Shown one piece after another: positions 3,112-22,802 of a DNA stretch of 64,000 nucleotides. The stretch spans positions 434,001-498,000 of the forward strand of contig NZ_MTQO01000051.1 of NCBI RefSeq assembly GCF_001984155.1, written 5' to 3'. The notes under the pieces are model-generated. The model was not told the origin of the DNA, did not search any database, and saw only the letters and a list, made by a program, of their open reading frames with translations. Position numbers and translations under genes: made by a program. Positions within the stretch are counted from its first letter, which is position 1. Each line of letters opens with the position of its first letter. This DNA is from Actinosynnema sp. ALI-1.44 (lineage in GTDB: Bacteria; Actinomycetota; Actinomycetes; Mycobacteriales; Pseudonocardiaceae).

Positions 3112-4368
3112 ATGACCGGCATCCACGTCGCCTTCCTCGAGACCAACAGGACAGGCAGCGGTTACGAGGTGATGCGTGTCGCCAAGCAGCGTGGCTGGCG
3201 GGTCACCCTCGTCGCCAAGGACTTCGACTTCTACCTGCAGCCCGGCCAGCAGCCGATTCCGATGGACGTGTTCGACGAGGTCGTCAAGGTCGACACCGAC
3301 GACCCGGAGGCGGTGGCGGAGATCCTGTCCCAGCGGCCCGACCGGCCGGACGCGTTGATCTCGGCGAGCGAGTTCCACATGCTGGGTACCGCGCGGACTG
3401 GGCGGTTGATGAAGCTGCGGGGCCAGGATCCCGAGGCTGTCCGGGCGTGCCGGGACAAGTCGCTGGGGCGGCAACTCGCCGCGAGCGCGGGGGTGCCGAT
3501 CCCGAAGTTCGTGCTGGCGGCCACCCCGGAGGAAGCGGCCGCCGCCGATGTCGGATTCCCTTGCGTGGTCAAGCCTCTGGACGACTCGGGTAGCTACGGC
3601 GTGCGGCTCTGCGCGAACTCCCAGGAGGTCGCCGACCACGCCAAGGCCCTGCTCGAGTGGACCCACAACGAGGTCGGGCAGGCCAAGCTCCCCGGCGTCC
3701 TGGTCGAGGAGTTCATGCACGGCCGGGAGATCAGCGTCGAGGTGATCGTCGCCGACTCGAAGGTCAACATCATCGCGATCACCGACAAGGTGCTGCTCCC
3801 GCCGCCCATCTTCTACGAGATCGGCCACACCGTTCCGGCGAGCCTCGACCCCGAGGTGGAACGCGCCTGCCGCGAGGCCGCCGTGCAGGCGCTCGCCGCC
3901 ATCGGCTACGACTTCGGTGCGGCGCACGTGGAACTCATGCTGACCGACGACGGGCCCAAGCTGGTCGAGATCAACTGCCGCCTCGCCGGTGACCAGATCA
4001 CGCGGCTGGTCAAACTGGCGACCGGATACGACATGCACGCGGCCCTGCTCGACATCTACCTGGGCACGGACCCTGGTGCGCCGCCATCGTCGCAGGGCGG
4101 CGCGGCCATCGTGTTCGTGCCGAGTCCCGGTGGCCGGATTCTCAAGCTCGACGGGGTCGAAGCCGCCCGCTCGATGCCCCACGTCGTGGACGTGGCGACG
4201 TTCGTCGAACCCGGTGCTGTGCTCCCAGTAGAGGCCGCGGGCTATGACCGCCTCGGTTATGTGGTCACTGTCGCCCCGGACGGACCGACCGCCGCGTCGT
4301 CCGCTCAGGCCGCGCTCGGCGCCATCCAGGTGGACGCCGAAGCCGTTGCGGAATCCGATCTTCGGTGA
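3112..4368 (+). CDS. ATP-grasp carboxylate-amine ligase
   Basis: This 418-residue protein has the ATP-grasp fold. The ATP-binding lysine lies in CVVKPLDDSGSYGV (K154), the adenine-contact segment in VLVEEFMHGREISVE (about 197-209), and the metal-binding residues in HVELM (E274) and VEINCR (E286, N288, R290). ATP-grasp ligases of this type form amide bonds between a carboxylate, activated as acyl phosphate, and an amine. In natural-product clusters they often join amino acids outside the NRPS line. A strong ribosome site precedes ATG 3112. It is the first gene of the operon, followed by the metallopeptidase after 111 bases. The substrate cannot be read from sequence. Amino-acid or dipeptide ligation is the best inference. 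Confidence 0.85.
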   Translation: MTGIHVAFLETNRTGSGYEVMRVAKQRGWRVTLVAKDFDFYLQPGQQPIPMDVFDEVVKVDTDDPEAVAEILSQRPDRPDALISASEFHMLGTARTGRLMKLRGQDPEAVRACRDKSLGRQLAASAGVPIPKFVLAATPEEAAAADVGFPCVVKPLDDSGSYGVRLCANSQEVADHAKALLEWTHNEVGQAKLPGVLVEEFMHGREISVEVIVADSKVNIIAITDKVLLPPPIFYEIGHTVPASLDPEVERACREAAVQALAAIGYDFGAAHVELMLTDDGPKLVEINCRLAGDQITRLVKLATGYDMHAALLDIYLGTDPGAPPSSQGGAAIVFVPSPGGRILKLDGVEAARSMPHVVDVATFVEPGAVLPVEAAGYDRLGYVVTVAPDGPTAASSAQAALGAIQVDAEAVAESDLR

Positions 4369-6451: not shown

Positions 6452-7210
6452 ATGTCCGAATCGGACAGCGTAGAAGTGGTTGAGGGCTCGTCCCGAGAGC
6501 GTTGCCGGGTCAGCTTGACGGCGGTGCCCGCGGGAGCCGCGGTGGTGCACCTGGTCCATCCGGCAGGTGGATCGGTGGCATGTTACCGCGGGCTGGCAGG
6601 CGATCTGTCACCCGAGGTGGCGACGGCGGCGTTCCTGCCGGTCGCATTGGACGGCGGTGTGCTGGACACCGACGTCGAGTCGATGGCCGAGCGCTACCTG
6701 GCGGAGGTGCCGCCGGGTCCGCTGCTGCTGGGCGGGTGGTCGTTCGGCGGGCTCGTCGCCTTCGAGATGGCGAGGAGATTGGCGGCGGCCGGACGCGCGA
6801 CCGGGCCGTTGCTGATGATCGACACGCCGCTGCCGGGGATCGGGGCGGTCGACGACGCGACGATCCGCGTCGAGTTCGAGGCCGAGCTGAGCAGGATGGC
6901 CGGCGCGGACGGCATCACCGCCGAGGAGCGCGCGACCCGGTTCGAGGTGTTCCGCACCCACTGCCTGGCGCAGGTCGCCTACCAGCCGCCGAGCCAGGTG
7001 ACCAACGACCTCGTGTTCATATCCCGCAAGGACAACCAGGACGCGCCGCGCTGGCAGGAGCACACGACAGGACGCCTGCGCCTGCGCCGGTTCCCCGCTG
7101 ACCACTACGAGCTGATGAGGGCGCCGCACGTGGGTGCCATAACCCGATTCGTGAAGACAACGCTGACCACCTCCTGGAAGACGTCTCATGAACCCAACGC
7201 TGACTCCTGA
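6452..7210 (+). CDS. type II (stand-alone) NRPS thioesterase
   Basis: A 252-residue alpha/beta hydrolase has the thioesterase nucleophile elbow GWSFGG (S97) in LLLGGWSFGGLVAFEMA and the catalytic histidine in PADHYELM (H218). The N-terminal strand HLVHPAGGSVACYRGL is typical of TesA/GrsT-like enzymes. Such enzymes remove misprimed acyl groups from carrier proteins or release products. The start at ATG 6452 gives a normal family length. The upstream open frame has no family similarity. The 3' end overlaps the next gene by 23 bases, implying co-translation. Neither NRPS here ends in a conventional TE domain, so this enzyme may share in product release. Confidence 0.85.
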   Translation: MSESDSVEVVEGSSRERCRVSLTAVPAGAAVVHLVHPAGGSVACYRGLAGDLSPEVATAAFLPVALDGGVLDTDVESMAERYLAEVPPGPLLLGGWSFGGLVAFEMARRLAAAGRATGPLLMIDTPLPGIGAVDDATIRVEFEAELSRMAGADGITAEERATRFEVFRTHCLAQVAYQPPSQVTNDLVFISRKDNQDAPRWQEHTTGRLRLRRFPADHYELMRAPHVGAITRFVKTTLTTSWKTSHEPNADS

Positions 7211-8300
7211 GCTGCAACTGTTCCGGCAAGAGCTACGCGACTTGCTGGCCAGGCCCGAGGTCGCGGCGGAACTGGCCGCCATCGCCGATGTGCCACCGGA
7301 GGAGTGCTTCCCCGAGACGGTGTACCAACTGCTCGGTGCGCACCAGATGCTGGCTCCGGCCTGGCCCCGGCGGTACGGCGGGCGGGACGCGACCGCGGCG
7401 CACGCCGCGATAGTGCAGGAGGAGTTGTCCGGGCACGGGATACCGGACATGCCCTTCATCAACACGATCACGAACGCCGGGGCGCTGCTGCTCTTCGTGG
7501 CCAGCGCCGAGCAGAAAGCCCGCTTCCTGCCTCCGCTCGCCGCCGGACTCGGCACGATGGTGGTGCTGTACAGCGAGGCCGAGGCGGGGTCGGATCTGGC
7601 GTCGCTGCGGACCCGGGCCGAGCGCGTCGACGGCGGCTGGCGGCTGTACGGCTCCAAGTGGTACGCCGTCCAGGTTCGCCGGGCGGGCTACGCCGTGGTC
7701 GCGGCCAGGACTTCCGATCGGGGCCGGGCCGAGGCGGGCATCACCTTGTTCCTCGTGGCACTGGACAACCCGGCCGTCAAGGCGAGCCTGGTCGAGTCGC
7801 TCTACCCCGATCCGTTCTACGAGGTGCTTCTGGACGGGGTGCACGTCCCCGACTGCGACGTGCTCGGGCCGGTCGACGGCGGCTGGTTCGTGCTGGCCGC
7901 GGGCCTGGCGATCGAGCGGACCGGCGTCGACTACAACGCCAAGGCCAACAGCTGGCTGAAGACCGTGGCCAAGCAGGTCGAGGCCCGCGACGACGCCGTC
8001 CTGCGCGACCGCCTCGTCAGCCTGCAGACCCAAGCCGCCGCGGGACGCGTGCTGGCGTGGCGGCTCGTCGAGCGCCAGCAGGAAGGCGACCTGAACGCCG
8101 AGGAGGCGGCGATGGCCAAGTGGTTCAACAGCGAGCTGTGCGTCAAGGTGGCGCAGCTGGCACTGGACGTCGGCGGCCCGGCGGACGCCACATCGGTGGC
8201 GATGCTGCGGGAGGCGCCCGGACTGACCCTGTCCGCGGGCGGCTCGGAAATCATGCTGGAGATCATCGGGTCCAGCCTGGGCCTCGGAGGGACGTCATGA
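7188..8300 (+). CDS. acyl-CoA dehydrogenase-like flavoprotein, larger subunit
   Basis: The protein has 370 residues. It has the acyl-CoA dehydrogenase layout: N-terminal helices, a beta domain with LYSEAEAGSDLASLRT (the flavin/substrate segment, about 125-140), and a C-terminal helical domain ending GGSEIMLEIIGSSLGL. That ending resembles the large subunits of heteromeric FadE26/27-type enzymes. The family abstracts alpha and beta hydrogens from acyl thioesters. Inside an NRPS cluster the likely substrate is a carrier-bound aminoacyl or acyl group. Its stop overlaps the next gene's ATG (ATGA), and that neighbour is a second dehydrogenase-like polypeptide, so the two probably form one enzyme. 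Confidence 0.85.
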   Translation: MNPTLTPELQLFRQELRDLLARPEVAAELAAIADVPPEECFPETVYQLLGAHQMLAPAWPRRYGGRDATAAHAAIVQEELSGHGIPDMPFINTITNAGALLLFVASAEQKARFLPPLAAGLGTMVVLYSEAEAGSDLASLRTRAERVDGGWRLYGSKWYAVQVRRAGYAVVAARTSDRGRAEAGITLFLVALDNPAVKASLVESLYPDPFYEVLLDGVHVPDCDVLGPVDGGWFVLAAGLAIERTGVDYNAKANSWLKTVAKQVEARDDAVLRDRLVSLQTQAAAGRVLAWRLVERQQEGDLNAEEAAMAKWFNSELCVKVAQLALDVGGPADATSVAMLREAPGLTLSAGGSEIMLEIIGSSLGLGGTS

Positions 8301-9136
8301 GCGCCGAGCTGGACATGGAAGCCGCACGGGACTCGGCGTCCGCCTACCTGGCCGCCTTCCACAGCGGTACCGTCGCCGACCCGTACGCGGCCATCGAACA
8401 CGCCATCGCCGCTGAATTCCTTGCCGGGCATGACATCGACGAGGTCATGCGGGCCAGGGCGGCGTCGCCTGTCGCGTTGCTGATACCCGGGCACGGCCAG
8501 GCCATCGCCGTGGGATCGGCAGGGTGGCTGCTGGCGGTGGGCTCCCCGCTTGTCCTCTACGCCGCGGACGACATCACCCGCCAGCCCTTGCGCTCGCTGA
8601 GCGAGGAGGAGCTGTACGCGGCCGACGCGGGCCCGGCGACCGGGCTCGTGGTGTGCGACAAGCCGGACTGCACCGCGTGTGCGCTGACCCAGGCGCGGCT
8701 GCACAGCCGGGCCGGGGCCTATCTCTGCGGCCTGGCACAGGGCGCCGTCAACGCCGCCGTCCGGCGCGTGCAGGAGCGGGTGCAGTTCGGCAGGCCGATC
8801 GGGAACAACCAGGCGGTCGCCTTCCAGCTGTCCGCGCTGACCGCCCGGCTGACGGCCTTGCACGCCCTCGGCGAGCACGTCGCCACCCGGATCGAGGCCG
8901 GTCGAACCGAAGCCGAAACCGTTGCGCCGGCAGACGCCTCGCGGCTGCTGGCGGCCTGCTCGGAGCTCGCGGTCGAGGCGACGACCACCGCACTGCACCT
9001 GCACGGGGCGTTCGGGCTGCGGTCCGACCAGGACGCACAGCGGTTCTACCGCAAGGCATGCGCATTCTCCGTTCGCCACGGAACACCCGCCCGGCTGCGA
9101 CTGGCGGGCTCAACCCGAAGGGAAGGATCCCGATGA
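8297..9136 (+). CDS. acyl-CoA dehydrogenase-like protein, smaller subunit
   Basis: This 279-residue protein has only a short, divergent N-terminal part but a recognisable C-terminal helical domain: RVQFGRPIGNNQAVAFQLS (about 157-175) and ALHLHGAFGLRSDQDAQRFYRKA near the end. Both are standard in acyl-CoA dehydrogenases. In heteromeric FadE pairs each chain supplies part of the active site. The ATGA overlap at 8297-8300 suggests stoichiometric translation with the larger subunit. The next start also overlaps its stop. It is unlikely to act alone, because the beta-domain flavin loop seen in the partner is missing. Confidence 0.8.
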   Translation: MSAELDMEAARDSASAYLAAFHSGTVADPYAAIEHAIAAEFLAGHDIDEVMRARAASPVALLIPGHGQAIAVGSAGWLLAVGSPLVLYAADDITRQPLRSLSEEELYAADAGPATGLVVCDKPDCTACALTQARLHSRAGAYLCGLAQGAVNAAVRRVQERVQFGRPIGNNQAVAFQLSALTARLTALHALGEHVATRIEAGRTEAETVAPADASRLLAACSELAVEATTTALHLHGAFGLRSDQDAQRFYRKACAFSVRHGTPARLRLAGSTRREGSR

Positions 9137-10929
9137 CCAGCACCGGCCGCACGGACGGTCCCCCCGGCCCGGCGGCAGTTGGCCTGCACCACCTGGTCGA
9201 AGAGCAGGCGGCGGCGACGCCCGACGCGATCGCCGTGACCGGGCCCGACGCCACCTGGACCTATGCCGAGCTGGACGAGCAGGCGACCCGGATCGCGGTG
9301 GGACTGCGCGAGCGCGGGGCCGGCCGCGGCCAGCTGATCGGGATGGCGATCGAGCGCTCGTCCGCCGCCGTGGCCGCCATCCTCGGCATCCTGAAGACGG
9401 GCGCGGGCTACGTGCCGCTCGATCCGGAGTTCCCGGCCAACCGGCTGAGCTTCATGATCGAGGACTGCGCACCTCTCGTGGTCGTGCACGCCGGGGCCGA
9501 CTTGCCATCCGTGCCCGGCACCGCGATGGTGGAGTTCGACGACGTCCTCGGCGCCCCGGGCGCACAGCTGGAGACCGTGGCCATCTCGCCGGAGCAGACG
9601 GCCTACATCATCTACACCTCCGGGTCGACCGGCCAGCCGAAGGGCGTCGAGATCCCGCACCGCGGCATCGTCGACCGCGTCCTGTGGGAACGCACCACCT
9701 ACCCGTCGGGCCCCGAGGACGCCGTGATCCTGCATCACGCGCTGAGCTTCGACGTCTCGCTGTGGGAGATCTTCATCCCGCTGACCACGGGCGGGCGGCT
9801 CGTCGTCGCCGACCCGTTGTACGGACAGGATCCCCGGTACCTGACCGACCTGGTCCGTTCGGAGAACGTCACGTGCCTCGCGGTCGTGCCCGCGCTGCTG
9901 CAGGCGCTGCTGGACGAGGAGCCCGGGCTGGGCGACTGCCCGTCGCTGCGCGAGGTGTTCTCCGGGGGAGAGGTGCTGTCCCCCGCTCTGGCCCGCAGGT
10001 TCCTCTCGACGGCGAAAGCCGGTCTGCACAACCAGTACGGTCCGACCGAGTACTCGATCGACACGACCTACTGGGACTGCGGTCCGCTGGACACCGACGC
10101 CGCGATCCCGATCGGTTACCCGAGGACCAACTCCCTGCTCTACATCCTCGACCCCGAGGGAAAGCCGGTGGACGACGGCGAAGCGGGCGAGCTCCACATC
10201 GCCGGTCCGGGCCTCGCCACCGGTTACCTCAACCGGCCGGAGCTGACCAGGGAACGCTTCATCGACAACCCGTTCGACGGCGGCCGCATGTACCGGACGG
10301 GCGACATCGTTCGCCGCCGCGAGGACGGCGCACTGGACTTCGTCGGCCGGGCCGACGACCAGGTCAAGGTCCGCGGGTTCCGGATCGAGCTCGGGGAGAT
10401 CGAGCGGGCGATCGAGTCCATTCAGGACGTCGAGTGGGCGGTGCTGACCACCGTGGGCAGCGGGGAGGACATGGCGCTCGCGGCCTTCGTGGTCCCCGGC
10501 ACGGTCAACGGCCAGCAGGTCCGGGCCCAGCTGGCGGAAACGCTGCCGGAGTACATGATTCCCACGCACGTGGTCGCGCTTGACCGGTTCCCCCTCGGGC
10601 CGACCGGCAAGGTGGACAAGTCCGCACTGGTCCTGCCCGCGCAGCCGGTCCGGCAGGCCAAGGAGGTTCCGCGCGACTCGGAGGAGGAACTCGTCGCGGG
10701 CACCTTCACCGAGATCCTCGGCCTGCCGGAGGTATCGGCGGACGACGACTTCTTCGAGCTCGGCGGCAACTCCCTGCAGGCGTTGCGGCTGCTCAACATC
10801 CTGCGCAAGAAGACCTCACCCGATCTGCCGATCGCGGTGCTGTTCGAGACACCGACCGTGGCGGGCATCGCGGCAGCACTGCGCGATGTCGACCAGGTCC
10901 CAGATCCATCGGCGGTCGCGGGGCAGTGA
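9133..10929 (+). CDS. NRPS adenylation-thiolation (A-T) didomain
   Basis: The protein has 598 residues. The A domain (about 15-510) shows IIYTSGSTGQPKG, NQYGPTEYS, GELHIAGPGLATGYLNRP, YRTGD and the catalytic lysine in PTGKVDK. The carrier domain (about 520-585) has DDFFELGGNSLQAL with the phosphopantetheine serine at S547. Aligned by eye to GrsA, the specificity code reads D-V-W-A-F-G-Q-I-D-K. The DVW...ID frame is like serine-activating domains, but A278, G301 and Q322 are not, so I assign only a small or polar amino acid. It directly follows the dehydrogenase pair and probably presents their substrate. It lacks a condensation domain, so it acts as a loading or stand-alone module. Confidence 0.9.
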   Translation: MTSTGRTDGPPGPAAVGLHHLVEEQAAATPDAIAVTGPDATWTYAELDEQATRIAVGLRERGAGRGQLIGMAIERSSAAVAAILGILKTGAGYVPLDPEFPANRLSFMIEDCAPLVVVHAGADLPSVPGTAMVEFDDVLGAPGAQLETVAISPEQTAYIIYTSGSTGQPKGVEIPHRGIVDRVLWERTTYPSGPEDAVILHHALSFDVSLWEIFIPLTTGGRLVVADPLYGQDPRYLTDLVRSENVTCLAVVPALLQALLDEEPGLGDCPSLREVFSGGEVLSPALARRFLSTAKAGLHNQYGPTEYSIDTTYWDCGPLDTDAAIPIGYPRTNSLLYILDPEGKPVDDGEAGELHIAGPGLATGYLNRPELTRERFIDNPFDGGRMYRTGDIVRRREDGALDFVGRADDQVKVRGFRIELGEIERAIESIQDVEWAVLTTVGSGEDMALAAFVVPGTVNGQQVRAQLAETLPEYMIPTHVVALDRFPLGPTGKVDKSALVLPAQPVRQAKEVPRDSEEELVAGTFTEILGLPEVSADDDFFELGGNSLQALRLLNILRKKTSPDLPIAVLFETPTVAGIAAALRDVDQVPDPSAVAGQ

Positions 10930-11029: not shown

Positions 11030-12541
11030 ATGCAACGGCCAATCTCTGCAAACACCGAAAAGCCGACGCAGGCTGACGTCGTCATCGTCGGCAACGGCGC
11101 ACTCGGTCTGTTCCTCGCCGAGGAGCTGATGGAGCGCCAGGCCGGCTCTGTCGTCGTGGTCGGCCCGAACGACCGGGACGCCGGTGCCAGCAAGGCCGCG
11201 GGCGCCATGCTCGGCACGTTCGGTGAGGTGACTGCGGACTCCCTGCGGACCCCCGCCTCGCGGACGAGGTTCGAGATCGGCCTCCGCGCGCACGAGCGCT
11301 GGCCGGACGTGATCAACCGCCTCGAGCCGTACTCCTCCAGCGGGTTCCCGCTGCAGACGGCCACCGAGTCGCACGTCGTCCTCAACGCCATCGGCGCGGA
11401 ACTGGACACGATCAACTTCGAGCACATGATCAAGGCGCTCGACGAGTACGACAAGCCGTGGTCGGAGATCGACCCGAAGGACATCCCCGGCTTCAAGCCG
11501 AGGACCGACACCAGGGCGCTGCGCGCCATCCACGTGCCGGGCGAGGGAGCCGTGGACGCCCGTGGCGTGCTGGCCGCCCTCGAGGTGCGCCTGGACGAGA
11601 TGGGCGCCACCCGGATCAACCAGACCGTGCGCAAGCTGATCAAGGACGGCGAGGCGGTGACCGGCGTCGAGCTCGACGACGGCCACATCATCGAGGCGGG
11701 GGCCGTGGTCGTCGCGACCGGCGCGCGCAGCGAGGCCCTGGTGCGCACCGTGGCAGAGGACCTCGAGCTCGTCCCCATGATCGCGGGCCTCGGCTTCGCG
11801 ATGCTCGCGCAGCGCACGAGCGGTGAGCCGTTCCAAAGCGTGGTGCGGACCCCGAACCGTGGCTTCGCCTGTGGTCTGCACGTCGTGCCCGCCGGTCCGG
11901 GATGCGAGTACCTCGGCGCGACCAACCGCCTGGTCGACGAGGTTTCCAGCGTCACATGGGTCGGCGACGCGCGTTACCTCGCCCAGTACGCGATGCAGCA
12001 GCTGGACGAGCAGATCGCGCAGCACGAGGTCGTGGGGTGGCTCAGCGGCAACCGACCGGTGACCTTCGACGGCTTCCCGATGATCGGTTGGCTGCCCCTG
12101 CCCGGCCTCTACCTGATGACCGGCACGTACCGCGACGGCTTCCACTGCGCGCCACTGCTGGCCCAGCACGTCGCGAACGAGCTGCAGGGCCAGCCGGGAG
12201 TCATCGACTCGATGTTCAACCCGGTGCGCCGTCCGATCGAGATCAGGACGGTCGAGGAGTCCATCGAGGAGTACGTGATCCACAGCCTCGCCGCGTGGTT
12301 CGAGACCGGTGCGGAAGCCGCGCCGCAGATGACGACCACGCACCTGGCGGCCTACTACCGGGCCAGGGCAAGGGAAGCGTTCGACCAGCTCGGCACCGAG
12401 TACGCGTTCGGCCCCGACGTGCTCTGGTCCGCCGAGGGCAGCCTCGTCGGCGGGCGCCGGATCGCCCGGTACCTCAACCGCCTGCGTGGCAGCGCATCCA
12501 CCTTGACCCCGGTGGGCAGCGGCATTGGAGACGCACGATGA
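11030..12541 (+). CDS. FAD-dependent amino-acid-oxidase-like (DAO family) flavoprotein
   Basis: A 503-residue protein starts with a Rossmann dinucleotide fold (VVIVGNGALGLFLAEEL, about 17-33) and has the DAO-family C-terminal element PMIGWLPLPGLYLMTGTYRDGFHCAP (about 345-370). This family includes glycine oxidase, sarcosine oxidase and D-amino-acid oxidase, which oxidise C-N bonds. About 80 residues follow the usual end of the family. It lies between an A-T didomain and a free carrier protein, and its stop overlaps the carrier's ATG. Oxidation of a carrier-bound or free amino acid to an imine or keto acid is the best inference. The substrate is not readable from sequence. Confidence 0.85.
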   Translation: MQRPISANTEKPTQADVVIVGNGALGLFLAEELMERQAGSVVVVGPNDRDAGASKAAGAMLGTFGEVTADSLRTPASRTRFEIGLRAHERWPDVINRLEPYSSSGFPLQTATESHVVLNAIGAELDTINFEHMIKALDEYDKPWSEIDPKDIPGFKPRTDTRALRAIHVPGEGAVDARGVLAALEVRLDEMGATRINQTVRKLIKDGEAVTGVELDDGHIIEAGAVVVATGARSEALVRTVAEDLELVPMIAGLGFAMLAQRTSGEPFQSVVRTPNRGFACGLHVVPAGPGCEYLGATNRLVDEVSSVTWVGDARYLAQYAMQQLDEQIAQHEVVGWLSGNRPVTFDGFPMIGWLPLPGLYLMTGTYRDGFHCAPLLAQHVANELQGQPGVIDSMFNPVRRPIEIRTVEESIEEYVIHSLAAWFETGAEAAPQMTTTHLAAYYRARAREAFDQLGTEYAFGPDVLWSAEGSLVGGRRIARYLNRLRGSASTLTPVGSGIGDAR

Positions 12542-12898: not shown

Positions 12899-15800
12899 AT
12901 GCCTCGACGAGAGCAGCGACCGGCAAATCCGTTCCCGCTGATCCGTGAGCCCACGGCGGGCCGTTATCCGCTCGCCGCGGGACAGGAGCGGCTCTGGTGG
13001 GCTCACCAGTTGGATTCCGCGATCAGCCAGTACCACATCCTGGAGGGCTGGCAGTTTCCCAAGGGCCTCGAGCCCGCGGCACTCGGCGAGGCCATCGCCG
13101 GGCTGGTCCGCAGGCACGAGATCCTGCGGAGCAGGTTCGCCCCGCAACCGGACGGGACGGTTGTCCTGGAAGTCCTCGACGAGGTCAGCATCCCCGTCAC
13201 CTGGGCAGGCCGGGAATGGCGCGCGGCGCTCGACGCCGCCGCCACCCGGCCGTTCGACCTCGCGCAGCCGCCGCTGTTCCGGCTGATCGCCGCGGAACTC
13301 GACGAGGGCCCGGGGCTGTGCATGGTCATGCACCACATCCTCACGGACCGCTGGTCCATGGACGTGCTGTCGCGTGACCTGACCGAGTTGTACGCGGCCG
13401 CGCTGGAGGAGCGGCCCGCGCAGCTTCCCCAGCTGCCGGTCCAGTACGGCGACTACGCCGTCTGGCAGCGGCAGTTCCTGACCGACGAGCGGCTCGCGTC
13501 GCTCCTCGAGTGGTGGCGTGGCGCCTTGTCGGGCCACGACCGGCCGGACCTGCCACTGGACCGGCCGCGGCCGGCCACGGCCGACGGGGCGGGCGGTACC
13601 GTCGTCGCCCACCTGTCCGAGGAGACCACGTCCGCGCTGACGGGCCTGGCCTGGCGGGCCCGCGCCACCCCGTTCATCGTGGTGATGGCCGCACTGGCGG
13701 CGACGCTGAGCGCCTACACCGGCTCGGACGACATCGTCATCGGCGCCATCGTCTCCGACCGCCCGCACCCCGACCTGCAGGACCTCGTCGGGTTCTTCAT
13801 CAACACCGTCCCGGTCCGGATCCAGCTGTCCGAGCCGGGCCTGACCTTCCGCGATCTCATCGTGCGCACCCGCGACGCGTGGATGGCCGCGGACGCCCAC
13901 CAGGACGCGCCCTTCGAACAGATCGTGGGCGCGGTCCGAGGTGGGTCGCAGACGCAGCGCAACCCGGTGTTCGACGTGGTGCTCAACCACGCGGGCGACC
14001 GGGTCAGCCTGACCGAGTCACCTGGCGCGCCGGTGCTGTGGCGTCCCGACGTGCCGACCACTGCCCGGTTCGATCTCTCCCTCACCACGCTGCCGGTCGA
14101 CGGTGGCATCGAGGTCACCTTCCTCTACCGGCTCGACCTGTTCGACCGGGCGCCGGTCGAGGCGATCACAGCGCGGTACGTCCGGCTGGTCGAGCAGGCG
14201 GTGGCCGACCCCGAGCGACCACTGCGCGACTTCACCCTCGTCTCGGCGTCGGAACTGGACGTCCTGCACGCCCGCAACGACCCGAGTCCCGCCCCGCAAG
14301 CCACCATCGTGGAGCTCTTCCAGGCCCAGGCGGCTTCCCGGCCGCAGGCTCCGGCGGTGGTCGGCGCCCGCGGCGAGCTCACGTACGGGCAACTGAACGA
14401 GCGGGCCAACCAGTTGGCCCGGCACCTGATCACCCGCGGTGTGGGACCGGAGCGGATCGTCGGGGTGTGCCTCGAGCACAGTGTCGAGCGGTACGTGGTC
14501 CTGCTCGCCATCGCCAAGTGCGGGGCGGCCTACCTCCCGCTGGACCCCGGCTTTCCCGCCGACCGGCTGCGGTTCCTGCTCGGCGACGCCGACGTGGTCC
14601 TGACGGTGGTCAGTCCGTCGTTGCGCACCGCGATCCCGGAGCACACCGGTCCGGTGCTCGAGGTCGGTCCCGACGTGCCCGACCTGACGGGCACCGAGAC
14701 CGGAGACCTCCCGCTGGCGGCGGGGCCCGACAACCTGGCATACCTGATCTCCACGTCGGGTTCCACCGGAACGCCCAAGTCGGTCGCGATCTCCCACCGC
14801 GCGCTCAGCCGGCTTGTCGCGGGCGCTCCGAGTTACCTCGATGTCGGCCCCGGCGCGACGCTCCTCCAGGCAGGGCCGTTGACCTTCGACGTGGCCGTGC
14901 TCGAGTGGGCCCCGCTGGCGCACGGCGGTCGCGTGGCGGTGACGGACACCGGGACGCTGCAGGAGAATCTGGACACCGTCGTACACGACTACGGGGTGAC
15001 GACACTGAAACTGGTGTCCCCGCAGCTCGACCTCCTCGTCGAGCGGGGCATCGGGTCGCTGGCCGGGTTGCGCCAGCTCGTCGTCGGCGGTGACGTCGTC
15101 AACCCGAAGAGCTTCGCCACGGCCATCGACCTGCTTCCCGGCTGCCGGGTGACGGCTTCGTACGGGCCCACGGAGAGCACGGTGTTCTCCACGGTGTTCG
15201 AAGGCCGCCCCACCACCGGCCGGGTGCCCATCGGGCATCCCATCCCGTACACGCGGGTCTACGTCCTCGACCCGAACCTGGACCACTGCCCGGTCGGGAT
15301 GCGGGGCGAGATCCACCTGGCGGGCGACGGCCTGGCGCGCGGCTACCACGGGCGTCCTGGGCTGACCGCGGACATGTTCGTTCCCGATCCCTACGGGCCA
15401 CCGGGATCGCGCATGTACCGCACCGGAGACGCGGGCCGGTATCTGGCCGACGGCGCGGTCGACATCCTCGGCCGCACCGACCGCCAGGTGAAGATCCGCG
15501 GCTTCCGGATCGAGACGAGCGAGATCGAGCACGCGCTGCTGCGCAGCCCCGGCATCACCTCGGCGATCGTGCTTCGGGCCGAACTGGCGACAGGGCCGTG
15601 CCTCGCGGCGTACGTCGTGGCGTCCGGCCCGGTCGACCGGGCCGGGCTGCGCCGGGAGCTCGGCCGGTCCCTGCCGCCGTACATGGTTCCCGACCACATC
15701 GTCGAGGTGCCGCGGATCCCGTTGACCACCAACAACAAGGTGGACCGGGCCGCGCTCGCGGCGATTGCGCTGGGACCGTCCGAGCCCGCTGACGCACCGC

Positions 15801-16750
15801 CCCCGGAGACCGGCATCGAGGCTCGCGTCGCGGAGGCCTGGTCGACCGTGCTCGGCCGCCCCGTGCCCGCTGGGGGAGACTTCTTCGAGCACGGCGGCCA
15901 TTCCCTGCTGGTGCCCCGCGCGACCGCGGCGATCCGGCAGCTGCTCGGACGTGAGGTCCCCCTCCGGCTGATGATGGACTGCCGGACGCCTGCGTCGTAC
16001 GCGCAGGCGTTGTTGAGCGAGAGCCAGCCCGACCTCGGCGCCGAGTCCCGTGAGCACCGCATGGAACGGCGGAGCTGGCACAACAGGACCCTCGGCGGGG
16101 ACCGGCGGGTGGATCTGTTCGTCACCGCGGCGGATCAGGACACCCCTGTCACCCGAGCGCTGGTTGTGCTCGACGGCTCGGAGTTCGTTGACGTCATGCG
16201 GTTCCCGGCAATACTGGACAGGCTTGCCCTCGCCGGGCGCATCCCGCCGACCGCGGCGATTTTCCTGAGTCCCGCGGACTGGTCGGCCCGCCGGGCGGAA
16301 CTGCTCGACGACGCGTACACCGACGTACTCGCCGACGATCTGGTGCCGTACCTGCGCGACTGGCTGGGCGAGCGATGGCGTGTGGAGCAGGTCACCGCGC
16401 TCGGCGCGAGCCTGGGAGCCGTCGCCGCCATCCGCGCCGCACTGCGCCGCGCGGACTGTTTCGACGGCGCGGTCGGCATCTCGGGCCCTCTCACCGACCA
16501 CGAGCTGACTCCTCACCCGAACGGTGGTGCGGCCCGTCCTGCCCGGCTCTTCCTGGGCGCGGGCCGGGAAGAGGCGGACATCGAGCTCGACGACGGGCTC
16601 AGTCTGCTTGAGGCGACGAAGAAGGTCGCCGCGGACCTGAGCGGACAGGGTCACGTCGTACGCGACGAGTACGGCGACGGCGGCCACACCTATGCCGCCT
16701 GGGAGGCGATGCTTCCCGAGGCCGTCGCATGGGCGCTCGATGAGCACTGA
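12899..16750 (+). CDS. NRPS C-A-T module with a C-terminal enterochelin-esterase-like domain
   Basis: The protein has 1283 residues. The condensation domain (about 20-440) has HHILTDR at 145-151, where the usual HHxxxDG glycine is arginine. The A domain (about 465-965) has [19 protein letters not shown] and [14 protein letters not shown]. Its code aligned to GrsA reads D-V-L-K-V-G-S-V-F-K, and K278 recalls Asp/Asn-type pockets. The thiolation domain has GGHSLL with S1002. The last 220 residues are an alpha/beta hydrolase like enterochelin esterase Fes/Iro[12 protein letters not shown] (S1171) and [16 protein letters not shown] (H1263). No ordinary TE domain is present, so this esterase probably releases or cleaves the product. 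ATG 12899 follows GAGAGGAG. Confidence 0.9.
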
Positions 16751-16784: not shown

Positions 16785-17000
16785 ATGTTCGACGACAGGC
16801 AGCGCGAGTTCCGCGTCGTGGTCAACCACGAGGAGCAGTACTCAATCTGGCCGTCCGACCGCGATCTTCCGGCCGGCTGGCGTGCCTCGGGCCATGTCGG
16901 GTCCAAAGAGGACTGCCTCGGCCACATCGACGAGGTCTGGACCGACATGCGGCCGCTGAGCCTGCGCCGGGCCACGGCGGAAAACGCGACGAGGAGCTGA
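16785..17000 (+). CDS. MbtH-like protein
   Basis: A 71-residue protein has the MbtH signature: [15 protein letters not shown], and the C-terminal [18 protein letters not shown]. MbtH proteins bind A domains and help them fold and adenylate. I chose ATG 16785 because GGCAGGA sits 6 bases upstream and the length is then normal. An in-frame ATG at 16740, overlapping the NRPS stop, would add 15 residues. It ends 6 bases before the stand-alone A domain, its likely partner, though the other two A domains may also need it. Confidence 0.95.
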
Positions 17001-17006
17001 CTGGCC

Positions 17007-18542
17007 ATGGACGATTCCCGCCAGAACGGAGCGCACGCGTCCGCGGCCCGGACGGTCTGTGAGATGTTCGACCACCAGGTCCGCATCCGCCCGGACGCCA
17101 CGGCCGTGCGGACCGCCGAGCGCTCGTGGACCTACGCCGAGTTCGGCCGCGAGACGGCCCGGCTGGCACATCGGCTCACCAAGCTCGGCGCCGGTCCGGG
17201 CAAGATCGTCGGGATGCCGATTCCCCGCAGTGCGGCCGCTTTGATCGGTCTCGTCGCCGTGATGCGGTCCGGCGCGGCATGTCTGCCGTTGGCCCCCGAC
17301 GACCCGCCCGCCCGCAACGGGGAGGTGCTGCACGACGTGGGGTGCGAGCTGACGCTGGCTCTCTCCCATGACGCGTGGCTGCCGGGCGTGCAGCTGTTCG
17401 ACGACCCCAGCCTCCATGGCGAGCCCGAGACGAGCGATGGTCTGCCGGTGCCGGACCCGCAGGACCTGGCCTACGCGATCACGACGTCGGGTTCGACCGG
17501 CCGTCCGAAGGTGGTCGGCGTTCCGCACCAGGGGATCGTCAACCTCATCCTGGCCAGCCGGGACGACCTCGACCTGATCCGCACCGACGACGTCGTCCTG
17601 TGGACGTGTCAGGCCACTGTGGACATCACGATGCAGGACTGCCTGATGGCCCTGTGCTGCGGGGGTGCCGTCGGGATCCCCGAGCCGGGCGAACTGCCCG
17701 CGACCCGGATCGTGCACGAGGCCCGCACGCTCGGCGCCACGGTGCTGGACATCCCGGCAGCCATGGTCGGGCCGTACGGCCGGTCGCTGCTGCCGCGCCT
17801 GGCCAACGCCGGGGTCCGGCTCGTCGCGGCAGGCAGTTCGCAGCTGGACGGCCGAGGCCTCGCGGAAGCCGCGGGCGACATGGTCGTGTGGAACTGCTAC
17901 GGCCCCACCGAAGCGTCGGTCGCCACCACGTGGTACCGGTGCCTCCCCTCGACCCCGCAACGGGCGCCGATCGGCAAGGCGATCCGCAACGTGCGCACCT
18001 ACGTCCTCGACGAGGAGCTGCGCCAGGTGCCGGTCGGCGAGGTCGGGCAGTTGTACCTGGCCGGTGCCGCACTCGCCAGGGGGTACCTCGGCCTGCCTGC
18101 TCGGACGGCCTCGGCGTTCCTGCCCGATCCGTACTCCGCCACCCCGGGCGAGCGGATGTACGCGACCGGGGACCGGGTCGTCCTGCAGCCGGACGGGGAC
18201 CTGGTCTTCCACGGCCGGTTCGACGACCAGGTGAAGATCAACGGTTTCCGGGTGGAGACCGGCGAGGTGGAGCACGCCCTGCTCCAGTGCCCCGGTGTCG
18301 TCGACGCCGTGATGCTGGTGCGCGAGGACGCTCCGGGCGGGACCGCCGTCGTCGCCTTCCTGACCGGGACGCGGTCGGCTGACGAGGAACTGGTGCGCCT
18401 GCTGCGGGAAAGGCTGCCCAGCCACATGGTCCCGCGGTTCTACATCTGGCTGGACGAGCTGCCCCTCAACCGGCCGGGAAAGGTCGACCGGGCCGCGCTC
18501 GCCAAGGTCCCGGTCGCCGATCTGGTTTATCGGGGCGGATGA
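17007..18542 (+). CDS. stand-alone NRPS adenylation domain
   Basis: A 511-residue A domain has no carrier or condensation partner attached. Motifs seen are AITTSGSTGRPKV, NCYGPTEAS, YATGD, FDDQVKINGFRVE and the catalytic lysine in NRPGKVDR. The strand that normally reads FDxSVWE is TVDITMQD, so it is divergent there. The code aligned by eye to GrsA reads D-I-Q-D-V-A-C-V-A-K. An aspartate at the 278 position is typical of domains that activate Lys, Arg or Orn. With an amidinotransferase and a guanidine-type N-hydroxylase next door, a basic or guanidino amino acid is a reasonable inference. The free carrier at 12538-12822 is the likely acceptor. Confidence 0.85.
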   Translation: MDDSRQNGAHASAARTVCEMFDHQVRIRPDATAVRTAERSWTYAEFGRETARLAHRLTKLGAGPGKIVGMPIPRSAAALIGLVAVMRSGAACLPLAPDDPPARNGEVLHDVGCELTLALSHDAWLPGVQLFDDPSLHGEPETSDGLPVPDPQDLAYAITTSGSTGRPKVVGVPHQGIVNLILASRDDLDLIRTDDVVLWTCQATVDITMQDCLMALCCGGAVGIPEPGELPATRIVHEARTLGATVLDIPAAMVGPYGRSLLPRLANAGVRLVAAGSSQLDGRGLAEAAGDMVVWNCYGPTEASVATTWYRCLPSTPQRAPIGKAIRNVRTYVLDEELRQVPVGEVGQLYLAGAALARGYLGLPARTASAFLPDPYSATPGERMYATGDRVVLQPDGDLVFHGRFDDQVKINGFRVETGEVEHALLQCPGVVDAVMLVREDAPGGTAVVAFLTGTRSADEELVRLLRERLPSHMVPRFYIWLDELPLNRPGKVDRAALAKVPVADLVYRGG

Positions 18543-18689
18543 CCACGGGCGACCCCGGCCGGAGGAGCCGGGCGTCCGGCCATGCCCATGACCCGAAATC
18601 CGGAAATCCCCACCAGCGCGAGCACTGGGACCACGTCGACCAGACCATTGCGCGCGACCGCATCAGACGGACCAGGAAGTGATAACACC

Positions 18690-19391
18690 ATGACAACCGG
18701 GGGAAGCAAGCCCGAGGAGATGGTCGCGGCACTGGGAGCGAAGCTCCAGGGCGACACGTTCTCCTGCGTGGCCGCGAAGACGGCATGGATGCGCGGGAGC
18801 GTTGTGCACCGCCACTTCGGACCGATGGGCGAGCCCGCGACGACAGACGAACTGTCGGCGGCGGTCACGGATTTCGCAGTGCGCCGTGACGACATCCACG
18901 AACTGCTCGCGACGTTCGTCGCCACCTTCGAAGGCCCGTTCGGCCTCGACGAGACCGAGTTCGAGACGCTCGTGTGGCAGCAGCTGCAGGGTCTGCACGA
19001 CCGGGACGTCCGCCGCTTCGCCTGGGCGGACTTCGCCGATTCCGACCCGACGTCCGACCGCTTCGCGTTCAGCATCGCCGAACAGGCCTTCTTCGTGGTC
19101 GGGTTGCACGCGAACTCGTCGCGGATCACCCGCCAGTTCAGCCACCCCACGCTCGTGTTCAACTCGCACGTGCAGTTCGAGCGGCTGCGCGAGCGCGGGA
19201 TCTACGGCCGTATCCGCACCGAGGTGCGGGCACGGGAGATGGCGCTGCAGGGATCGATCAACCCCAATCTCTCGGACTTCGGCGAGCGCTCGGAAGCCAT
19301 GCAGTACTCCGGCCGCGCGACCTCGCCGGACTGGAAATGCCCGTTCCGGCCGCACACCGACGGCCTCGACCAGAAGGAGGACGCGCGATGA
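18690..19391 (+). CDS. YqcI/YcgG-family (PF08892-type) heme-dependent N-hydroxylase
   Basis: The protein has 233 residues. The family core is clear: GLHANSSR (138-145), PTLVFNSHVQFERLR (153-167), LQGSINPNLSDFG (186-198) and QYSGRA...DWKCPF (205-219). From memory of the literature, members such as AglA (argolaphos) and GntA (guanitoxin) are heme-dependent enzymes that N-hydroxylate arginine or guanidine groups. ATG 18690 has AGGAAG upstream, and a longer reading to 18582 adds low-complexity text. The stop overlaps the SDR start (ATGA), and the amidinotransferase follows the SDR, so hydroxylation of a guanidine made in this pathway is likely. The exact substrate (free arginine, carrier-bound or peptide) is unknown. 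Confidence 0.85.
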   Translation: MTTGGSKPEEMVAALGAKLQGDTFSCVAAKTAWMRGSVVHRHFGPMGEPATTDELSAAVTDFAVRRDDIHELLATFVATFEGPFGLDETEFETLVWQQLQGLHDRDVRRFAWADFADSDPTSDRFAFSIAEQAFFVVGLHANSSRITRQFSHPTLVFNSHVQFERLRERGIYGRIRTEVRAREMALQGSINPNLSDFGERSEAMQYSGRATSPDWKCPFRPHTDGLDQKEDAR

Positions 19392-20149
19392 CGGACGGCT
19401 GGGTCGTGGTCACGGGAGCGTCCTCCGGCATCGGCCAGGCCGTCGCCAAGCGGTTCCTGGACAACGGCCACCGGGTGGCGCTGCTCGCTCGCCGGGCCGA
19501 GCGTTTCGCCGGCCTGGCGAACGACTTCGGCACCGACCGGGTGCGCACACTGGCCGTGGACGTGCGGGACCGGTCGGCCGTCGAGAGCGCCTTCGACGCC
19601 TTGGACGAGATCGGCGTACTGGTCAACAACGCCGGGTTGTCCCTTGGCCTCGGGCCCCTCGACGAGGGGGATCCCGACGCTTGGCGAACGATGCTCGACA
19701 CGAACGTCGCGGGCCTGCTCACCTGTACGCACGCCGTGCTGCCCAGGATGCGCAAGGCCGAGGCCGGCCACGTGATCAACATCGGGTCGCTGGCCGCCGA
19801 GTACGCGTTCTACGGAGGCAATGTCTACGCGGCGACGAAGGCCTTCGTCCACCACCTGTCGGCGAACCTGCGTGCGGACATCCAGGGCTCGGGCATCCGG
19901 GTGACCTGCGTCGCGCCGGGGATGGTGCGCTCGGAGTTCGCCCTCGTGCGGTTCGGGGGCGACCAGGACAAGGCGGACGCCCTGTACAAGGGCATCAACC
20001 CGTTGACTCCTGGTGACGTCGCGGACGCCGTCCTGTGGGCGTACGGCACGCCGGCGCACGTCAACGTGAACTACGTCGAGCTGATGTCGGTCGATCAGCC
20101 CTTCGGGCTGGCCCTTAGCCGTGGCACACAAGAGAGGAACACGCAATGA
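19388..20149 (+). CDS. YdfG-like short-chain dehydrogenase (3-hydroxy acid dehydrogenase type)
   Basis: A 253-residue classical SDR has the cofactor loop TGASSGIG (about 9-16), NNAG, and the catalytic Ser and YxxxK in NIGSLAAEYAFYGGNVYAATKAF. The C-terminal part (GMVRSEFALVRFGGD...HVNVNYVELMSVDQPFG) is specifically like E. coli YdfG. YdfG oxidises serine and other 3-hydroxy acids with NADP and reduces malonic semialdehyde. It is translationally coupled on both sides. In this pathway it may oxidise a beta-hydroxy amino acid or reduce a semialdehyde before amidino transfer; that is inference. Confidence 0.88.
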   Translation: MTDGWVVVTGASSGIGQAVAKRFLDNGHRVALLARRAERFAGLANDFGTDRVRTLAVDVRDRSAVESAFDALDEIGVLVNNAGLSLGLGPLDEGDPDAWRTMLDTNVAGLLTCTHAVLPRMRKAEAGHVINIGSLAAEYAFYGGNVYAATKAFVHHLSANLRADIQGSGIRVTCVAPGMVRSEFALVRFGGDQDKADALYKGINPLTPGDVADAVLWAYGTPAHVNVNYVELMSVDQPFGLALSRGTQERNTQ

Positions 20150-21180
20150 GCGCGGTCAGTTCGTACAACGACTTCGGCAAGCTCCAGGAGATCGTCGTCG
20201 GAAGCGCCGAGGGGTTCAACTTCCCGTCGATCGACAGTTCCATGAAGCACTTCTTCTCCCCGCCGCCGGGCTCCGAGTCGGAGGCGATTTCGGTCAACAC
20301 CCTGGCCAGGATCGTGGAGGAGACCGAGGAGGACCTGCAGGCACTCACCGACACCCTGGAGAAGTCAGGGGTGCGCGTGCGGCGGCCGGAGCAGGTCGAC
20401 CACAGCAGGCCGATCAACGTCCTGGACTGGAAGAGCACCGCCAACCATGCCCTGATGCCACGGGACTGCCTGCTGGTCGTCGGTGACACGATCATCGAGG
20501 CGCCCATGGCCGTGCGGGCCAGGTATGCCGAGACCTTCCCGTTCCGCAAGCTGCTGCGCGAGTACTTCGACGGCGGGGCCCGCTGGCTGGCGGCGCCCAA
20601 ACCCCAGCTGCCCGAAGAGACCTACCAGTACGACGAGGCCGGCAACCCGGTGCTCGGCGAGCTCGAGCCGCTGTTCGACGCGGCCAACATCATCCGGTGC
20701 GGCCGCGACTTGTTCTACAACGTGAGCAACACCGGTAACCGCTTCGGGGCTGCCTGGCTGGCCCGGGTCCTGGGATCCGACTACCGCGTGCACGAGATGT
20801 CGATCTGCGACGACCACGTCGGTACGACGATTCATGTGCTCAAGCCCGGTGTGCTGCTGGCGAACGCGGGCAGGCTGAACCCGGACCTCATCCCGGAACC
20901 GTTGCGCGGCTGGAAGACCCTGTGGTTCGACGACCCGCAGGACGACGGTTTCGGCTTCGAGTGGCCGCGCGCCTCCACCTGGATCGGCATGAACATCCTG
21001 TCCGTGGACGAGGAGACGGTCATCGTGCCGAAGGCGCAGGACGGGCTTGCGAAGCTGCTGGACTCGGCGGGCTTCACCGTGATTCCGGTGCCGTACCGCC
21101 ACGGTCGCACCTTCGGCGGCGGATTCCACTGCTGCAGCGCCGACGTGCGCCGTGCGGGCGAACTTACGTCTTATCTCTGA
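20146..21180 (+). CDS. arginine:glycine amidinotransferase-family enzyme
   Basis: This 344-residue amidinotransferase has a complete catalytic set: FDAAN (D178), DDHVGTTIH (H224) and the nucleophile cysteine C329 in GGGFHCCSADVRR, as in GATM and StrB-type enzymes. The family moves the amidino group of L-arginine onto an amine through a covalent amidino-cysteine, making a guanidine and ornithine. The length is normal. The ATG overlaps the SDR stop (ATGA). The acceptor is unknown. Paired with the YqcI/YcgG hydroxylase it implies that the product carries a guanidine, possibly N-hydroxylated. Confidence 0.92.
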   Translation: MSAVSSYNDFGKLQEIVVGSAEGFNFPSIDSSMKHFFSPPPGSESEAISVNTLARIVEETEEDLQALTDTLEKSGVRVRRPEQVDHSRPINVLDWKSTANHALMPRDCLLVVGDTIIEAPMAVRARYAETFPFRKLLREYFDGGARWLAAPKPQLPEETYQYDEAGNPVLGELEPLFDAANIIRCGRDLFYNVSNTGNRFGAAWLARVLGSDYRVHEMSICDDHVGTTIHVLKPGVLLANAGRLNPDLIPEPLRGWKTLWFDDPQDDGFGFEWPRASTWIGMNILSVDEETVIVPKAQDGLAKLLDSAGFTVIPVPYRHGRTFGGGFHCCSADVRRAGELTSYL

Positions 21181-21189
21181 GGGGACACA

Positions 21190-21990
21190 GTGTCTGATGA
21201 GAGTGAACGCCCCCGGTTCGACGCCATCATGAGCCAGGGCGGGGACGAGATCATCGACGCGACGTTCCGCGGCGCCCAGAGCGGCGACGTCCTTGCGATG
21301 TACGAGCTGTCCAAGCCGTTCGTGGCGACGGGTGGCCTGATCGCGCGTGACCTCGAGCTGTTCGACACCGACGTCGAGGACTTCTACGTCGTGGAGATCG
21401 ACGAGGTCGTGGTGGCGTGCGCCGGGATCCGCCGCTTCACCGACCTCGCCGAGATCTTCAACGTGGCGGTCGACGGGCGCTGGCAGAGCCTCGGCATCGG
21501 CCGGTTCCTGCTGACCAGCATGCTGATCGTGCTGGAGTCGGAGGGATTCGCCGACGCGGTCGTCTTCACCAAGACGACCAGGGACTGGTTCGCCCGGTAC
21601 GGGTTCCTGCCGATGGACCCCGCGTCGCTGCCCGCCGAACGGCTGACGATGCTGGACCCCGAGCGGAAGTCGATACCCATGGTGCGGCCGACCGTGCAGG
21701 CCTCGGACAGCATCGACGCGCTGGCGTCGATCACCGAACTGCGGGTGCGGTTCGAGCGGTCGGGGGTGGAAGCGGTGTGGGACAACGGGTGCGACTCGCT
21801 GCTGATGTTCGCCGAGAAGAACGACATCGACACGGCCTCGCTGTGCCGCGGCGGGATGTGCGGCACGTGCAGCAGCGCGTTGAAACAGGGCACCGTCAGC
21901 TATGACGTGCGGCCGGATGTCGACCCGGGCGATGGCAGCATCCTGCTGTGCATCTCGCGGCCGGCCGCGAACGTGGTGCTCGACCTGTGA
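21190..21990 (+). CDS. GNAT acetyltransferase-[2Fe-2S] ferredoxin fusion
   Basis: The protein has 266 residues. Residues about 20-150 form a GNAT domain (FYVVEIDEVVVACAGIRRF, acetyl-CoA loop QSLGIGR at 99-105, FARYGF). Residues about 180-266 form a plant-type ferredoxin domain with cluster ligands C219, C224 and C227 (LCRGGMCGTC) and C254 (ILLCISRP). The ferredoxin half is like those at the ends of flavodoxin/oxygenase reductases. Joining the two is unusual. The start is GTG 21190 after AGGGGAC, and the stop overlaps the MOSC start (GTGA). The ferredoxin part probably serves the MOSC protein, or the heme hydroxylase. The GNAT part could acylate an amine of the product or precursor. Confidence 0.85.
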   Translation: MSDESERPRFDAIMSQGGDEIIDATFRGAQSGDVLAMYELSKPFVATGGLIARDLELFDTDVEDFYVVEIDEVVVACAGIRRFTDLAEIFNVAVDGRWQSLGIGRFLLTSMLIVLESEGFADAVVFTKTTRDWFARYGFLPMDPASLPAERLTMLDPERKSIPMVRPTVQASDSIDALASITELRVRFERSGVEAVWDNGCDSLLMFAEKNDIDTASLCRGGMCGTCSSALKQGTVSYDVRPDVDPGDGSILLCISRPAANVVLDL

Positions 21991-22802
21991 GCCCGCCTGC
22001 AGTAGCGGAGTTGTGGCGTTACCCGGTGAAGTCGATGGGCGGCGAGCGGGTCACCGAGCTCGTGCTCGACCACGGGGTGGTGGGAGATCGCGCGTTCGCT
22101 GTCGTCGCGGTCGCCACCGGCCGGGTACTGACGGCCAAGCGCGTGCCCCAACTGCTCGACGCCTCGGCGCGCTGGCTCGGCTCGGCGGTGGAGATCACCT
22201 TGCCTGGCGGGCCGACCGTCCACAGTGACGACCGGGACGCGGACGCCGCCATCAGCCGGTGGCTGGGCCAGGCGGTGCGGCTGGACCGGCCCGCCGGTCG
22301 CGCGGTCGCGGTGGAGGAGTACCAGGGCGACCCGGACGGGTCCGGCGAACTGGACACCTTCGACCTGCCGGCGTGGGGGTTCGTCGACGAGGCACCGGTG
22401 CACCTGCTGAGCAGGGACTCGCTCCAGCAGGCGCAGCGGTGGTACCCCGGCGGTGACTGGGACCTGCGCCGGTTCCGGCCCAACATCGTGCTCACGTCGG
22501 CCACCCCTGATCTCGATCGGGCCACCACCCTGTCCGCCAGGTCCGGCGAAGGCACCGTGGGCGACGAACTGCAGATCGGCCGGGTCATCGTCGAGGTGAC
22601 AAGCCTCTGCAAACGGTGCGTCATGGTGACGCAGCCGCAGCGCGGCCTGCCCAAGGACCGCGAGGTGCTGCGCTCGATCATCAGCCGGGCCGGTGCCGAG
22701 TTCGGGACGTACGCCGAGGTGCGCCGCCCTGGCGCGGTGCGCTGCGGCGACCCCGTGACCGTGCTGGTCGCGGTTCAAGCCAACAAGGAGAGGACACACT
22801 GA
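21987..22802 (+). CDS. MOSC-domain protein of the YcbX/mARC type
   Basis: The 271-residue protein has an N-terminal MOSC beta-barrel domain (ELWRYPVKSMGGERV), followed by the MOSC core with RRFRPNIV (161-168) and SLCKRC, where C211 aligns with the molybdenum-ligating cysteine. The ferredoxin domain that E. coli YcbX carries at its C terminus is missing, but the coupled gene just upstream ends in one. mARC and YcbX are molybdenum-cofactor enzymes that reduce N-hydroxylated compounds, including N-hydroxyguanidines and amidoximes. Here it may trim an N-hydroxyl in biosynthesis or detoxify the product. GTG 21987 is chosen from the GTGA overlap. The upstream extension has no family similarity. Confidence 0.85.
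   Translation: MSPPAVAELWRYPVKSMGGERVTELVLDHGVVGDRAFAVVAVATGRVLTAKRVPQLLDASARWLGSAVEITLPGGPTVHSDDRDADAAISRWLGQAVRLDRPAGRAVAVEEYQGDPDGSGELDTFDLPAWGFVDEAPVHLLSRDSLQQAQRWYPGGDWDLRRFRPNIVLTSATPDLDRATTLSARSGEGTVGDELQIGRVIVEVTSLCKRCVMVTQPQRGLPKDREVLRSIISRAGAEFGTYAEVRRPGAVRCGDPVTVLVAVQANKERTH

Follow-up and report, generated by a model that had tools for sequence, protein, structure and literature searches.

A 64,000-nucleotide stretch of the 11.7-Mb Actinosynnema sp. ALI-1.44 genome (contig NZ_MTQO01000051.1, positions 434,001 to 498,000), which we call the window, contains a nonribosomal peptide synthetase (NRPS) gene cluster that ends in two coupled genes (Table 1). The first encodes a fusion between a GNAT acetyltransferase and a plant-type [2Fe-2S] ferredoxin (Fer2) domain, here called GNAT-Fer2. 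The second encodes a MOSC protein of the mARC/YcbX type. An earlier reading of this DNA, the original prediction, described the pair as a split YcbX-like reductase lying downstream of GntA, a heme-type guanidine N-hydroxylase.

The coupled GNAT-Fer2 and MOSC genes

The GNAT-Fer2 open reading frame (ORF) begins with GTG and encodes 266 residues. The GNAT half matches PF00583 (E 3.2e-8) and PF13508 (E 1.6e-7), and the C-terminal Fer2 domain, residues 189-258, matches PF00111 (E 8.9e-9; 35.6 bits against a cut-off of 21). Of the six cysteines (77, 201, 219, 224, 227 and 254), the four originally assigned to the ferredoxin domain, C219, C224, C227 and C254, form a Cx4Cx2C motif plus a fourth cysteine, as in plant-type [2Fe-2S] domains, and are invariant in all four fusions aligned. 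The GNAT half resembles N-acetylglutamate synthase and matches 2r8v (E 4.4e-9). It also matches the ArgA and ArsN2 models, but far below their equivalog cut-offs (78.2 bits against 344 and 38 bits against 125, respectively), and the Fer2 tail is additional to both types. Glycines G102 and G104 of the acetyl-CoA loop are invariant in the four fusions, as is R53, which aligns to an arginine that serves the gonococcal enzyme as a carboxylate ligand. The position of R53 suggests that the acceptor of the GNAT domain may be an amino acid.

The MOSC ORF, which also starts with GTG, encodes 271 residues with MOSC_N followed by MOSC (PF03476, E 3.5e-15; PF03473, E 6e-17; each over its cut-off) and has the mARC fold. 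Its candidate molybdenum ligand, C211, lies within KRCVM, which phmmer aligned to SRCIL of human mARC1, in keeping with the original placement of a MOSC core with this ligand on the second gene. The conserved MOSC cysteine of mARC1 is Cys273 (PMC10637980). We aligned 23 MOSC sequences, using 22 of the 29 other MOSC loci (L111, L113 and L114 were omitted because of uncertain starts; L119, L122, L127 and L132 were not chosen). C211 is invariant across all 23 rows, and the cluster MOSC retains the 21 invariant columns. Both cluster copies, the one in the window and an ortholog described below, keep C211, R210, K15, S16, R35, R162, R164, N166, Y242, and the remaining invariant columns. The genome carries two MoeA_N matches. 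The cluster protein thus shares with E. coli YcbX and eukaryotic mARC the MOSC_N-MOSC order, the RC motif containing the MOSC cysteine and the mARC1 fold, and, as in YcbX, which carries its own (PMC10637980), a [2Fe-2S] ferredoxin domain is at hand. Unlike in YcbX and mARC, this domain sits on a separate, acetyltransferase-fused chain, the gene belongs to a natural-product cluster, and several near-invariant positions have changed.

The GNAT-Fer2 stop and the MOSC start overlap in GTGA, as originally described. GntA lies three genes upstream of GNAT-Fer2, also as described, in the order GntA, short-chain dehydrogenase, amidinotransferase, GNAT-Fer2. The whole run from GntA to MOSC is tightly packed, with ATGA overlaps at the GntA-dehydrogenase and dehydrogenase-amidinotransferase junctions and 9 bases before GNAT-Fer2. 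GntA scores 265.8 bits with NF041366 (curated cut-off 145), which groups it with the heme guanidine N-hydroxylases GntA, AglA, DcsA, and ChmN, and matches PF08892 (E 2.3e-50).

An orthologous cluster occurs in genome G578, from another genus of the same family, where DNA similarity places the block corresponding to window positions 3063-22769 in the same order; no further window DNA matched in the 52.8 kb of contig compared. The cluster proteins are 74-92% identical in tblastn matches (GNAT-Fer2, 86%; MOSC, 74%), and the GTGA coupling is kept. The dN/dS ratios of 12 cluster genes (the adenylation-carrier, MbtH, and thioesterase genes were left out) range from 0.20 to 0.40, with GNAT-Fer2 at 0.28 and MOSC second highest at 0.36. 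Since the block, the coupling, and purifying selection are common to two genera, GNAT-Fer2 and MOSC form the end of one co-inherited cluster. Their coupling is more than chance, and the predicted location inside an NRPS cluster with a guanidine N-hydroxylase holds in both genera.

Rarity of GNAT-Fer2 and a second setting in mangotoxin-like operons

We searched overlapping genome sets for full-length GNAT-Fer2, scoring the first 6 (class set), 9 (family set), and 7 (order set) candidates per genome, so that fusions could be missed. The fusion was present in at least three of 394 class-set genomes (the window's own, G198, and G129), at least two of 249 family-set genomes (own and G578), and at least one of 328 order-set genomes (own). 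One of the 60 nearest relatives (own) and two of 35 genomes in the family of G198 carried it. None of 216 plasmid records covered 80% of GNAT-Fer2, and the only hits in a single-protein scan of the contig collection were uninformative GNAT-like matches at two Ruminococcus loci. The literature matches listed contained no GNAT-Fer2/MOSC pair in a biosynthetic cluster, and phrases for acetyltransferase-ferredoxin fusions gave no paper; one listed paper, PMC3634020, mentions a MOSC domain once. Neither a MOSC nor a GNAT-ferredoxin gene appears in the argolaphos gene table, and the word MOSC is absent from the available text of PMC10849742 and PMC12866846.

In G198 and G129, which belong to one genus of another family, GNAT-Fer2 closes a compact operon that encodes, in order, a heme-oxygenase-like protein, two ATP-grasp ligases, an MFS exporter, and GNAT-Fer2. 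The first protein matches MboA (9ypi; phmmer E 1.3e-49), with a Pfam match of 25.6 bits that lies under the cut-off of 28.9. In mangotoxin biosynthesis, MboA introduces an alkyne into a C-terminal arginine and depends on a dedicated NAD(P)H/flavin/Fe2S2 reductase, MboB (PMC13185094). As GNAT-Fer2 takes the place of the MboB-type reductase in these mangotoxin-like operons and is the sole Fer2 frame found in the two loci, we infer that it supplies electrons to the MboA-like diiron oxidase. Compared with the mangotoxin operon mboABCDEF, the window cluster likewise combines arginine-type chemistry with ATP-grasp ligases but has NRPS genes, GntA, and MOSC, whereas the published operon has MboB rather than GNAT-Fer2. 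The Pfam scans, which took in only part of the window, turned up no MboA-like gene. Mangotoxin is reported to inhibit ornithine N-acetyltransferase (PMC3355146), and a link between this inhibition and the acetylglutamate-synthase-like GNAT half is only an idea. The two kinds of cluster that carry this rare redox module are unrelated apart from their arginine chemistry, so GNAT-Fer2 could point to pathways not seen before and to a novel type of dedicated redox partner.

Proposed function and competing explanations

From the domains, motifs, MOSC fold, gene coupling, co-inheritance, and purifying selection described above, we tentatively propose, at a little short of an even chance, that the pair is a two-protein molybdenum N-O reductase that edits or undoes the GntA product, with Fer2 as electron carrier and MOSC as its main acceptor. 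The cluster would make a small peptide, and GntA probably adds oxygen to nitrogen. MOSC would bind the molybdenum cofactor through C211 and deoxygenate an N-hydroxylated group, the likeliest being an N-hydroxyguanidine made by GntA. Electrons would reach MOSC through the [2Fe-2S] domain of the neighboring acetyltransferase, itself reduced by a reductase that would be encoded elsewhere; the window cluster contains no FNR gene. The GNAT domain would transfer acetyl to an amine on that molecule or on a precursor of it. Together the two proteins probably serve clean-up or self-protection, by undoing or editing hydroxylation in the cell, and not the assembly of the end product. N-acetylation by the GNAT half could contribute to protecting the producer, and editing would act on over-oxidized intermediates. 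A bolder version, which we consider unlikely, is a self-protection or proof-reading module in which the fusion protein both acetylates an N-hydroxyguanidino amino acid or peptide that is toxic and powers a dedicated molybdenum reductase that removes the N-hydroxyl. One biosynthetic operon would then encode a hydroxylase together with the molybdoenzyme that reverses it, with GNAT-Fer2 constituting a new class of redox partner that serves MOSC here and an MboA-like oxidase elsewhere.

We favor electron flow from Fer2 to MOSC because of the GTGA coupling in two genera, the precedent of YcbX, and the absence of Fer2 frames at other GntA loci. N-reduction by mARC/YcbX enzymes is well established, whereas their natural substrates are debated (PMC10637980). 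Co-inheritance of a MOSC enzyme with a guanidine N-hydroxylase would give an N-reductase whose natural substrate can be predicted. The observation behind the original prediction was right. Its interpretation is partly supported: the NRPS cluster carries a putatively dedicated MOSC enzyme together with a predicted N-hydroxylase, a combination that would be new.

Several observations weigh against this reading. The strongest comes from the mangotoxin-like operons: MOSC is absent from the GNAT-Fer2 contigs of G198 and G129, both of which have MOSC genes elsewhere in the genome, and the location of GNAT-Fer2 beside an MboA-like oxidase implies that Fer2 may feed an oxygenase rather than form part of a MOSC enzyme. 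By extension, Fer2 in the window could be the dedicated donor of GntA, with MOSC using a general cellular donor and its adjacency reflecting only operon order. We consider this somewhat unlikely, although it corresponds to a condition raised against the original prediction, that the ferredoxin donates to the heme enzyme alone. It is consistent with the company of GNAT-Fer2 in the mangotoxin-like operons, where no other Fer2 frame was found, with the dependence of MboA on its own reductase (PMC13185094), with the need of AglA for either spinach ferredoxin or a PDR/VanB reductase that bears an Fe-S domain (PMC12866846), and with the use of spinach ferredoxin in assays of ChmN (PMC10849742). However, in both genera the gene coupled to GNAT-Fer2 by GTGA is MOSC, not GntA, and none of 17 other GntA-type loci contained a Fer2 frame, indicating that GntA enzymes usually manage without a clustered donor.

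Those 17 loci (14 over the GntA cut-off and three under) spanned up to 20 kb each (L134, 9.8 kb; L141, 11.7 kb). Besides the window's own genome and G578, they covered all seven class-set genomes and seven of 14 family-set genomes with a GntA match over the cut-off. The lack of Fer2 at these loci also counts against the proposed reductase, as does the lack of a MOSC frame in 16 of the 17. In the exception, L141 of G637, a MOSC gene (3266-4249) and a GntA-like match under the cut-off (approximately 9965-10576) lie on opposite strands about 5.7 kb apart, with an adenylation-domain frame between them. As controls, the Fer2 model recovered all four known fusions and the MOSC model both cluster copies. 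Across the family set, where the first 10 candidates per genome were scored, GntA-type matches occurred in 27 of 249 genomes (16 over the cut-off) and MOSC matches at E 1e-10 in 57; three genomes (G000, G578, and G637) had both. The original prediction would have been undermined had the pair never co-occurred with N-hydroxylases; both GNAT-Fer2/MOSC pairs found sit with GntA, although as members of one orthologous cluster they count as a single event. We noted two further arrangements of GntA-type genes. L136 of G023 has two of them in tandem (9444-11023), and L139 of G509 (741-1934 and 9875-10621) is another cluster, with an amidinotransferase (41% identical) about 8 kb from its GntA gene and with neither MOSC nor Fer2.

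Further points against the proposed reductase concern the proteins themselves. The cluster MOSC sits on a long branch and has lost the near-invariant D41, E187, W190, and L216, so its chemistry could have changed, and the structure model of GNAT-Fer2, built from four sequences, reached a pLDDT of 47 and gave no usable fold or interface. In the extreme case, MOSC would no longer be a molybdenum reductase, being degenerate or having taken another role, and GNAT-Fer2 would be an acetyltransferase with a regulatory Fer2 domain. The sequence divergence and the rank of MOSC as second-fastest of the 12 genes fit this idea, which is nevertheless very unlikely: neither cluster copy has lost C211 or any other invariant column, the dN/dS of MOSC is well under 1, and no fusion has lost any of the four Fer2 cysteines.

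One carrier might also serve both enzymes, supporting hydroxylation by GntA and reversal or editing by MOSC, for example by removing one oxygen from an over-hydroxylated guanidine. Both candidate acceptors lie in one operon, and the production of mono- and dihydroxyarginine by ChmN (PMC10849742) indicates that over-oxidation by the YqcI/YcgG family is real. Because a shared carrier would favor a futile cycle unless the substrates differ, we regard this arrangement as improbable.

The ancestry of the parts bears on the word "split." A mARC/YcbX-type MOSC core with Fer2 on the preceding gene stands as described, and the MOSC ORF, ending at residue 271 with no Fer2, is not a YcbX in the strict sense. 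However, no Fer2-like cysteine motif followed the MOSC match in 30 family MOSC loci (the L114 frame broke early), a further point against the reductase reading, and GNAT-Fer2 occurs elsewhere without MOSC. We therefore dropped a strict split of YcbX as the simplest account of the origin. With the MOSC line stand-alone and GNAT-Fer2 free of MOSC in two operons, the pair seems to have been put together from separate parts, not split. The closest Fer2 relatives among the fetched loci, with up to 52% identity, are the C-terminal domains of actinobacterial MOSC-FNR-Fer2 chains, present at 12 of the 15 distinct loci, the exceptions being L020, L079, and L080. Unlike the window proteins, these chains have a YiiM-type MOSC with a 3-alpha domain (PF03475) and their own FNR. 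In L080 (1-1749; actinomycete G484), a single chain combines a mARC/YcbX-type MOSC with FNR and Fer2 domains after it. Fer2 ancestry was considered as proof of the partner and dropped: these chains are matched equally by the Fer2 domains from the MOSC-free operons, so ancestry names no partner, which limits the case for MOSC as the acceptor.

The surrounding cluster

Table 1. Genes of the window cluster and the mangotoxin-like operons
Feature	Position	Strand	Evidence
ATP-grasp L-amino-acid-ligase-like protein	3112..4368	+	PF13535, PF18603
DUF885 protein	4480..6138	+	PF05960 (E 6.4e-38)
Type II thioesterase-like protein, start inferred	6452..7210	+	Named by eye; frame and orthologous frame in L084
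Acyl-CoA dehydrogenase-like protein 1	7188..8300	+	Pfam
Acyl-CoA dehydrogenase-like protein 2, start inferred	8297..9136	+	PF00441
NRPS adenylation-carrier didomain, start inferred	9133..10929	+	Pfam
FAD amino-acid oxidase, DAO type (ThiO-like)	11030..12541	+	PF01266; TIGR02352 below its cut-off
NRPS condensation-adenylation-carrier protein with C-terminal esterase domain, start inferred	12899..16750	+	Pfam
MbtH-like protein	16785..17000	+	PF03621
Stand-alone NRPS adenylation domain	17007..18542	+	PF00501
GntA (YqcI-YcgG) heme guanidine N-hydroxylase, start uncertain	18582..19391	+	NF041366
Short-chain dehydrogenase, YdfG-like	19388..20149	+	PF00106 (E 1.9e-48)
Amidinotransferase, StrB1/AGAT-like	20146..21180	+	1bwd (phmmer E 7.9e-85)
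GNAT-Fer2: N-acetylglutamate-synthase-like GNAT and plant-type [2Fe-2S] ferredoxin domain	21190..21990	+	Pfam/NCBIfam, four-fusion alignment, second-genus ortholog
MOSC_N-MOSC protein, mARC/YcbX type, C211 candidate Mo ligand	21987..22802	+	Pfam, mARC1 match, alignment, ortholog
Mangotoxin-like operons (MboA-like oxidase, two ATP-grasp ligases, MFS exporter, GNAT-Fer2 in place of MboB-type reductase)	L065:4593-10429; L067:9822-15691		

The match of GntA to its ortholog in G578 starts at residue 24 (85% identity). GntA has only two cysteines, C62 and C253, of which C62 is a candidate heme ligand. YqcI enzymes are also present in diazeniumdiolate (graminine) clusters (PMC10849742); no SznF-like gene came up when the cluster genes were scanned against Pfam and NCBIfam, although no query directed at SznF was made. 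Inspection of the NRPS adenylation codes by eye gave nothing reliable on substrate.

Beside the G578 cluster, L084:7906-10620 contains exporter-like and StrR-like regulator-like genes, named by eye, that have no close match near the window cluster. In the window, genes for a MerR-type regulator and a beta-lactamase-fold protein (23003-24981) lie directly past the conserved block, outside the part matched in G578.
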